64,000 bases of DNA. Origin: Brevibacillus massiliensis. Its GTDB lineage: Bacteria > Bacillota > Bacilli > Brevibacillales > Brevibacillaceae. Below are positions 32,866-35,318 of the stretch, piece by piece. The notes under the pieces were generated by a model, which worked only from the letters and a program-made list of their open reading frames with translations, did no database searches and was not told the origin of the DNA. The position numbers and the translations under genes were made by a program. The first letter of the stretch is position 1, and every line of letters starts with the position of its first letter. The DNA is taken from contig NZ_HE978542.1 in NCBI RefSeq assembly GCF_000311785.1, forward strand, positions 1 through 64,000. Direction: 5' to 3'.

Positions 32866-33474
32866 CTACTTCGCCTCCTGGTTTTGGCGCGAAGGGCTGT
32901 TTGCAGACACCGCCGCCGTCATCACCACATGGGAAGCGCCGCTCTCTTGCGCCCGGGCAAAGGATTCCTCCAGGCTTTTGAACACGTGCCGGGCATCGCC
33001 GTCCAGACGGGTTGCGTAGTGAATCCCCTTGGTATAGGTGCCGAGTTCTTTGCAGTGCTCTACCTGATCGTAGATGACCGACATGTAGTCAGCCGTACCG
33101 AGCGGATACAGGGCGAACTGCGCGGCAGCCGGGACTGAGCGATCCGCCAACTTTGGTTCGTTCAGCCTGACGTCATCCACCTCCAGATATGCGTCTTGCT
33201 GCGAATCCCCAGGGCAGCCAACCGAAAACGTTCCGTTCCATACCACGTGAATCCCTCTGTCGGCAGCCAGGACAAACATCGCCTTGGCCACGTCAAACAC
33301 GTGTTCAGCCCGGCCGCGGATGCAGGTGCTGACATCGTCTGTCATCATCCACACTTTTGACGTGTCCACCTCCTGCAGCGTATCCAGGATTACCTCTACG
33401 AAATGATCGCACATCGGATACAGGGAAAACCTGCATCCGACAATCCTGCTTGTTCCACAACATTCTGCAGCCAT
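32866..33474 (-). CDS. ykoF: thiamine/HMP-binding protein YkoF
   Basis: A 202-aa protein with two repeated ferredoxin-like halves (GCRFSLYPMCDHFVEVILD near residue 13; AQFALYPLGTADYMSVIYDQVE near 118). This is the duplicated fold of YkoF, which binds thiamine and pyrimidine precursors. It is the first gene of ykoFEDC. ATG at 33474, GAGGAG nine bases upstream, downstream of a TPP riboswitch and terminator. Confidence 0.93.
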   Translation of the reverse strand: MAAECCGTSRIVGCRFSLYPMCDHFVEVILDTLQEVDTSKVWMMTDDVSTCIRGRAEHVFDVAKAMFVLAADRGIHVVWNGTFSVGCPGDSQQDAYLEVDDVRLNEPKLADRSVPAAAQFALYPLGTADYMSVIYDQVEHCKELGTYTKGIHYATRLDGDARHVFKSLEESFARAQESGASHVVMTAAVSANSPSRQNQEAK

Positions 33475-33512
33475 ACCTCACGTCTCCTCGCCAAATTTTT
33501 TTATTTGGCAAT

Positions 33513-33539
33513 AAAAAAACTGCACCCGGGTAGGTGCAG
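33513..33539 (-). terminator. riboswitch-controlled terminator of ykoFEDC
   Basis: On the minus strand, a CTGCACC/GGTGCAG stem (33520-33526 with 33533-33539) is followed by seven T (33513-33519). It lies between the TPP aptamer and ykoF. Confidence 0.93.
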
Positions 33540-33587
33540 CCGATCAGGCGAGGTTGCTTGCAAATGCCAACCTTTTTGACAGATGAC

Positions 33588-33676
33588 TACACTTCCCCAC
33601 GCTAGTATTATCTAGATCGGGTAGTAAGGGATCGGAACAAAGCGTTCCATCTCAGCCCGCAAGAGCACCCCTAGTG
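33588..33676 (-). ncRNA. TPP riboswitch (THI element)
   Basis: The minus strand reads AGGGGTGC, then GGGCTGAGATGG, a variable arm, ACCCGATCTAGATAATACTAGCG and GGGGAA; this is the conserved order of the thiamine pyrophosphate aptamer. The closing P1 stem is ACACT/AGTGT (33671-33676 side with 33588-33594 side). Bound TPP should favour the terminator at 33513-33539 and shut off the transporter operon. Confidence 0.96.
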
Positions 33677-33725
33677 TATTTCACGTATGCAGTTTTTTTA
33701 TTGCTACCGTAGACTTTAACAAACC

Positions 33726-33731: not shown

Positions 33732-33760
33732 AGAAGTTCAAGAGGGTACGGCCGCGGTTT

Positions 33761-35066: not shown

Positions 35067-35093
35067 AAAAAAACCCGCCCCCATAGGGACGAG
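35067..35093 (-). terminator. T-box terminator upstream of tyrS
   Basis: An 8-bp GC-rich stem (35074-35081 side with 35086-35093, including wobble pairs) followed by seven T on the minus strand, next to the T-box sequence. Confidence 0.88.
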
Positions 35094-35318
35094 ATTGGAC
35101 TCGCGGTACCACCCTAATTGGAAATCGGTTCGCTTGCCTATGCCGACTTCCCGCTTAAACAGAATAACGGTCTGCTTCCGTCCGGCGCCTGCCGAACCGC
35201 TCCCGGCGTGTACTTCGCCAAAGGAACGATGCTGGTTCGCACCTGCCACCAGCTCTCTTGGATCGTCAGCCCTCTCGCTACTGTCGCCGTTCAACGCGTC
35301 TGTGGTTGATGAAGTTAC
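35067..35318 (-). ncRNA. T-box leader, tyrosine specific
   Basis: The minus strand contains the invariant T-box AGGGTGGTACCGCG (35102-35115). Upstream lie AGTAGCGAGAG (about 35273-35283) and the specifier region GAAGTACACG, whose TAC at 35210-35212 is a tyrosine codon. Uncharged tRNA-Tyr would stabilise the antiterminator and allow tyrS transcription. Confidence 0.96.

Follow-up and report, generated by a model that had tools for sequence, protein, structure and literature searches.

A predicted 5′-terminal leader strand matched to the terminator 3′ side in TPP riboswitches upstream of ykoF, with a probable role in holding the switch ON

In the leader of a ykoF operon on the reverse strand of the window (the whole stretch of 64,000 nt of Brevibacillus massiliensis DNA that was analysed), a strand upstream of the TPP riboswitch aptamer is perfectly complementary to the 3′ side of the transcription terminator, and a corresponding strand was found in most of the ykoF leaders compared. 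Conservation of this tail, leader-specific matching of tail and terminator, and the folds predicted for the leaders were computed. The leader is interpreted as a TPP-binding OFF riboswitch with an expression platform that would straddle the aptamer and consist of five strands, a to e, and this reading is given a probability of about 0.58. The tail variant is regarded as genuine, conserved and new for a known riboswitch type, and the mechanism as probable.

According to the proposed mechanism, strand a would form the 5′ tail of the RNA, strands b and c the aptamer helix P1, and strands d and e the terminator. In the presence of TPP, P1 (b:c) would be locked, strand d would be left free to form the d:e terminator, and transcription would stop. 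When TPP is absent, the ordinary antiterminator c:d would form, and the freed strand e, together with the U-tract and frequently some of the bases after it, would be captured by the tail, giving an ON state in which the aptamer and the c:d helix are enclosed by a long a:e helix. The tail would have no TPP sensing of its own; by removing the competitor e it would bias the exchange towards ON and keep the read-through mRNA in the ON state. In cells, the a:e helix may form and alter termination, and its extension past the U-tract may serve the read-through mRNA.

Table 1. Features of the ykoF leader region in the window
Feature	Position	Strand	Basis or remark
Candidate −35 box TTGAAC	33736..33741	-	17-nt spacing to TAAAGT
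Candidate extended −10 box TAAAGT, TG at 33721-33720	33713..33718	-	weak by consensus
Predicted transcription start	33705..33706	-	6-7 nt past the −10 box
Strand a: 5′ tail GCAATAAAAAAACTGCA	33688..33704	-	complements terminator 3′ arm, U-tract and AUUGC
Core CTGCAT of strand a	33687-33692	-	kept as YYGCATA/CTACATA in 91/109 parsed leaders
TPP riboswitch aptamer (RF00059)	33577..33682	-	78.7 bits, E 7.5e-14
Strand b: P1 5′ strand UACACU	33673..33678	-	aptamer alignment; folds
Strand c: P1 3′ strand and following bases, GUGUAGUC (ordinary antiterminator strand)	33585..33592	-	8 bp with strand d in the MFE fold
Strand d: terminator 5′ arm GGCUGCAC	33534..33541	-	terminator scan; folds
Strand e: terminator 3′ arm GGGUGCAG	33520..33527	-	terminator scan; folds
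Terminator U-tract	33513..33519	-	terminator scan; sequence
3′ arm of the 17-bp repeat (part of strand e, U-tract and AUUGC)	33508..33524	-	repeat search
Short hairpin GCCAAAU-AAAAAA-AUUUGGC upstream of the ribosome-binding site	33490..33509	-	sequence; folds
ykoF (thiamine/HMP-binding protein family)	32866..33474	-	Pfam Ykof E 3.2e-57

The aptamer covers positions 1-105 of the 105 positions of the RF00059 covariance model, and its score of 78.7 bits compares with a curated threshold of 54.3. Downstream of ykoF, genes for a permease, an ATPase and a CbiQ-like protein complete a ykoF-E-D-C-like operon (Pfam Ykof, ABC_cobalt, ABC_tran and CbiQ), by which the riboswitch is linked to thiamine genes. 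An intrinsic terminator (33541-33518 followed by U7) is located between the aptamer and ykoF, and the P1 3′ strand can form 8 bp with the terminator 5′ arm, as in a transcription-terminating OFF platform with a P1-based antiterminator. The A-run of the short hairpin upstream of the ribosome-binding site is also complementary to the terminator U-tract and could pair with it. Additionally, 10 of the 17 bases of the repeat described below (AATAAAAAAA) recur at 33505-33496, which gives the U-tract a second, local partner of 10 bp immediately downstream.

The initial annotation had described a TPP riboswitch framed by a 17-bp perfect inverted repeat and had considered a chance match of this length unlikely, and both statements were borne out. 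The arms (33508-33524 and 33688-33704) are 100% complementary and separated by 163 nt, and the 64 kb of the window contain no other perfect inverted repeat of at least 13 bp whose arms lie 100-300 nt from each other. In 40 dinucleotide shuffles of the window, repeats of 13 bp were obtained eight times, of 14 bp twice and of 15 bp once, with none of 17 bp, and a match of 17 bp to the terminator 3′ side never occurred when the 5′ leader was shuffled in the same way 20,000 times (best, 15 bp); the matching in orthologous leaders reported below points in the same direction. The window is an extreme case, the longest perfect run being 4-11 bp in the other 108 parsed leaders among the ykoF matches listed, the tail helices of which are broken by bulges. 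A mobile element or an inverted repeat acting at the DNA level was ruled out, since the match is limited to the presumed transcribed tail and the DNA upstream of the promoter gave no own-specific match.

The start of the RNA was predicted from a candidate promoter (TTGAAC-17-TAAAGT) that falls below the 9-of-12 cut of the promoter scanner, and the predicted +1 lies just outside the 5′ arm of the repeat. Orthologous promoters at the matching place are stronger, with TTTACA-16/17/18-TATAAT-like arrangements; examples are TTGACA-17-TACGAT in L035 and many of the type TTTACA-17-TACAAT/TATAAT, and in most orthologous leaders the conserved core is at most about 30 nt from the predicted start. As proposed in the initial annotation, the terminator complement would therefore be part of the transcript, the whole arm being probably transcribed, and the tail probably sits at the 5′ end of the RNA. 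In L049, L052 and related leaders, a small hairpin (e.g. CGGG..CCCG) precedes the tail at the predicted 5′ end of the RNA.

Homologues of ykoF were collected from named Paenibacillus records (L035-L038), a class-wide sample, a Paenibacillus-like family and two further groups. A match was found in 54 of 398 genomes of the class-wide sample (five of them weak and partial), in 22 of 295 genomes of the Paenibacillus-like family and in 75 of 159 and 47 of 249 genomes of the further groups; among 39 genomes of the same family or order as the window, ykoF was found in the window's own genome only. From at most 30 listed ykoF matches per search and 12 further stretches, 120 loci were entered, 109 of which could be parsed into aptamer and terminator, the remaining 11 being L060, L093, L105, L110, L114, L116, L132, L133, L141, L146 and L147. 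TPP aptamers were located upstream in all four named Paenibacillus loci, in 20 of 20 loci of the series L040-L059 and in 8 of 9 loci of the series L060-L068 (not in L060). Some ykoF matches (G385, G506, G666, G693, G806 and others) contain one internal stop codon (TAG, TAA or TGA) and may be pseudogenes or reflect effects at the match ends.

Shortly upstream of P1, the sequence YYGCATA or CTACATA was present in 91 of the 109 parsed leaders (among the ykoF matches listed). Between 62 and 104 nt upstream neither form occurred in any of the 109, and among 61 non-ykoF TPP leaders just 1 had such a sequence; L180, which is a ykoF leader, was left out of this latter control in the motif test and the A+T-matched test. 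The two forms were spread over 14 of 16 family labels and 29 of 38 genus labels, where one family may bear two labels, and the core motif was missing from 15 of the 109 parsed leaders. Loss of the repeat from orthologous leaders, named in the initial annotation as an outcome contrary to its proposal, was thus not what was found, the tail element being kept in most of them. In eight leaders (L044, L113, L115, L117, L118, L120, L124 and L125) the tail reads TTGCATAA, and its best match is seemingly (A)TGCAA just past the U-tract and not the terminator arm.

For the analysis of tail-terminator matching, the 109 leaders were clustered to 44, duplex energies were calculated for each tail against a segment made up of the terminator 3′ arm, U-tract and 18 bases after it, and the partners were then swapped between leaders. 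The tail pairs better with its own terminator 3′ side than with those of others, with a mean of -17.98 kcal/mol for own partners and -13.90 kcal/mol for swapped partners (z -9.1; 0 of 5000 permutations), and the effect was of the same size in A+T-matched swaps (z -9.1) and was retained in 20 stricter representatives (z -5.3). The 3′ arm with the U-tract alone gave z -5.7 and the bases after the U-tract alone z -3.7 in the 44 leaders; in the 20 strict representatives the latter part alone was not significant (p 0.17). The outer tail, 5′ of the core, was own-specific for the U-tract and the following bases in A+T-matched swaps (z -5.6 for n=44 and -2.7 for n=20), and for the bases after the U-tract by themselves, with -5.98 for own and -4.84 for swapped partners (p<=0.0002, n=44). 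Joining the own 3′ arm and U-tract to a swapped following segment gave -15.50, which is worse than the fully own combination. Flat results were obtained in the 44 leaders for the c-d spacer (p 0.38), for the stretch 18-52 nt past the U-tract (p 0.89) and for the DNA upstream of the promoter (p 0.16), and the tail had no own preference for strand c (p 0.37); c and d showed an own preference of p 0.014. Among other leader classes, the effect was small in 61 non-ykoF TPP leaders (z -2.4, p 0.01; A+T-matched p 0.065) and weak in 19 FMN leaders (p 0.008), and an own-specific match of the 5′ tail to the terminator was absent from 21 SAM and 22 T-box leaders.

At the level of single positions, 89 leaders were readable. 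The second core base and its partner were T-A in 49, C-G in 31, T.G in 5, C.A in 2 and A.A in 2, and the third core base and its partner were G-C in 82, A-T in 5 and A.C in 2, one A.A and one A.C in these counts stemming from the misread L148. Position e5 is occupied by G in 36 of the 89; C stands opposite it in the tail of 31 of these, and the terminator arm d has C in 11 and a wobble in 25. In L094, both sides of a3:e4 are changed to A-U and strand c retains C; clear breaks of the core pairing occur in L072, L073, L076 and L106. In a tree of 98 proteins the core positions changed only 8-9 times, and in the four well-supported independent pairs that differ at a2, e5 follows in 1.6 on average and never in the opposite direction; with only four such pairs, the tree counts are unable to reach significance.

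The conservation of strand a has more than one cause, because the flanks AAYY..ATA of the core are kept even where complementarity is lacking and in other riboswitch classes. The wider motif AAYYNNATA, chosen after inspection of the ykoF leaders, occurs near the predicted start in Bacillota leaders (window 33681-33705; L035-L154; SAM leaders L195-L224; FMN leaders L225-L254), with observed counts above those expected from shuffles in other TPP leaders (18 of 61; expected 2.8), SAM leaders (16 of 30; expected 1.5) and FMN leaders (17 of 30; expected 1.2). T-box leaders showed little enrichment of a looser motif (11 of 30; expected 5.7), and the signature check left the strand unconfirmed in 17 of these 30 loci. 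A set of 77 other strong promoters was chosen by sequence alone and many of them may not be promoters, for which reason the motif claim rests on the shuffles and the upstream stretch. Outside ykoF leaders, no consistent pairing partner of AAYYNNATA was found. Since the motif is present in other classes, conservation of the tail by itself proves nothing about pairing, and the argument is carried by the swap tests. In the tyrS T-box leader of the window (35082-35303, with upstream sequence to 35420, reverse strand; 113 bits), the promoter-proximal TAAGATCGTAGGTAACTTCATCAACC holds AACTTCATC near the predicted start. Two aptamers of the TPP class on the same strand, about 180-190 nt apart, were observed at G009:C37:93-384 and G017:C15:30906-31183 and are possible tandem TPP riboswitches.

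Folding of the window RNA from 33705 to either 33512 or 33508 gave an unconstrained minimum free energy (MFE) structure in which a:e encloses the 8-bp c:d helix. As c:d is the usual antiterminator and is present inside the tail helix, the tail would be added to the common design; the view of the initial annotation that the upstream strand replaces the usual antiterminator was therefore not supported. At the end of the U-tract, the MFE structure had at least 5 bp of a:e and no d:e in 25 of 44 representatives. The ligand-free terminator probability in the 44 leaders had a median of 0.11 for the native RNA, 0.86 after removal of the tail and 0.74 after its shuffling (corresponding means 0.38, 0.66 and 0.64), in agreement with the earlier suggestion that pairing of the 5′ tail counters the terminator, as far as equilibrium models go. 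With a P1 bonus that mimics TPP, the terminator returned (mean 0.89 at U+4) and tail pairing dropped from 0.41 to 0.07; the tail can thus be coupled to TPP even though it touches no aptamer base. The modelled switch amplitude at U+4 was 0.47 with and 0.26 without the tail, and these folds indicate that the tail probably helps to hold the switch ON.

The models also set limits to this role. At U+1, with the U-tract not yet out, the effect of the tail was smaller (mean terminator probability 0.44 native and 0.58 cut), and in the window the terminator probability was 0.98, 0.85 and 0.04 at U+1, U+4 and U+8, the tail winning only after about eight U, which in this model is likely later than the decision of the RNA polymerase. 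A comparison of folds with and without constrained P1 had been suggested in the initial annotation: the unconstrained fold contains a:e, and when P1 was forced in the window RNA ending at 33508, the structure with P1 and the 17-bp a:e helix reached -67.2 compared with -64.2 for P1 and terminator. Helix a:e and P1 are hence not exclusive, the tail of the window is no simple thermodynamic alternative to P1, and the decision would be kinetic, with c:d forming first. For a 246-nt RNA extending into ykoF, the OFF fold was preferred.

A late action of the tail is the main alternative to the five-strand reading: the tail helix would form after the decision, in the read-through mRNA only, would place the RNA 5′ end in a duplex with the terminator 3′ side and the following bases, and would in this way stabilise the mRNA or keep the leader open with termination unchanged. 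It is kept as the main rival because of the late flip in the window at U+8, the coexistence of a:e with P1, the OFF fold of the 246-nt RNA and the geometry, pairing of the 3′ arm next to the U-tract not being that of an ordinary antiterminator. The complementarity also runs past the U-tract into bases transcribed only after read-through, the outer tail being own-specific for them and their exchange costing duplex energy, and L044 with its relatives and L150 seemingly pair best with this stretch. Against it, the part after the U-tract lost significance in the strict representatives, strand e itself is strongly matched although protection of a 5′ end needs no exact pairing with e, and L049, L052 and their relatives already have a short 5′ hairpin able to protect the end; on balance, we consider an exclusively late role rather unlikely. 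The pairing past the U-tract nevertheless suggests that the tail of the five-strand switch has a role in the read-through mRNA too. A duplex adjoining the U-tract could, moreover, itself serve as a terminator stem, and the tail might be an auxiliary terminator strand that promotes RNA release when d is unavailable. Helix a:e uses the same 3′ strand and register as d:e, and RNA release in vitro can be brought about by oligonucleotides that pair at this position; an auxiliary strand, however, would close the operon at low TPP, and pairing past the U-tract implies unterminated RNA, which makes this function very improbable.

The resemblance of strands c and e raised the question of whether a pairs with c as a competing or auxiliary P1, the match to e being a by-product. 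CYGCA can pair with UGYRG of c in many leaders, and L072 retains a:c while breaking a:e; the tail has no own preference for c in the swap test, however, a:c is broken at a2 but a:e retained in L036 and in the L080 group, and L094 retains a:e only. The alternative P1 was rejected mainly on the swap test and the leaders with broken a:c, and its probability is as low as that of the auxiliary terminator. Slightly less improbable, but still hard to sustain, is that strand a is kept only as a version of the 5′-terminal AAYYNNATA and its terminator match is functionless. The motif does precede SAM, FMN and other TPP aptamers and is still present in 10 of the 15 ykoF leaders in which the pairing core is missing, but this explanation would leave unexplained both the own-specific matching outside the core and the fact that e5 follows a2 rather than d2, and leaders of other TPP, FMN, SAM and T-box elements show weak or no own-specific matching. 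That a promoter-proximal stretch rich in A matches the U-tract merely by chance could be argued from the 10 of 17 bases that are A/T and are repeated 3′ to the terminator, but in view of the swap tests, the motif conservation and the shuffle counts this is scarcely credible.

It is conceivable, though we hold it only tentatively, that in the ykoF leaders the RNA's own 5′ terminus works as one strand of the five-strand switch. A 5′-terminal motif common to different classes of Bacillota riboswitch leaders (AAYYNNAUA, close to +1) would then have been adapted, through its middle two bases and its A-rich 5′ flank, to pairing with the terminator 3′ arm, U-tract and later bases, one and the same helix first disfavouring termination and afterwards sealing the 5′ end of the mRNA made by read-through. 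Searches for expression platforms are normally confined to the region downstream of the aptamer, and in vitro constructs often begin at the aptamer. Should the tail be a working strand, constructs of this kind would misjudge the switch, by the shift in modelled median terminator probability seen on tail removal. The tail would also be a natural design for tuning a riboswitch with the aptamer and the terminator left untouched, and it makes testable the question of whether pairing of a terminator 3′ arm beside the U-tract leads to read-through, to release or to mRNA stability only.

According to reviews, the alternative structure of riboswitches is usually made by P1 bases and expression-platform sequence (PMC2258182, PMC10907184, PMC3280964). 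The Paenibacillus ykoC-F operon for HMP/thiamine transport has already been reported with an upstream TPP riboswitch; it is the same operon and riboswitch, and the switching strands of the leader are not described in the sections of that report available to us (PMC5627462). In the full-text literature, with few subscription papers covered, no pairing of a 5′-leader strand with the terminator of a TPP riboswitch was found, and a prior description is possible. T-box leaders and other attenuators likewise have mutually exclusive terminators and antiterminators, but their antiterminator is located downstream of the sensor and the ykoF tail upstream of the aptamer. With the terminator-type RF00059 TPP riboswitches such as that of Bacillus subtilis tenA, the ykoF leader shares the aptamer, the expected OFF logic, the terminator and the pairing of the P1 3′ strand with the terminator 5′ arm. 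Unlike this type, it carries one further strand, placed ahead of the aptamer at the probable RNA 5′ terminus and able to pair with the 3′ arm of the terminator, its U-tract and bases beyond; aptamer and operon are ordinary, and the 5′-tail strand is the new part.
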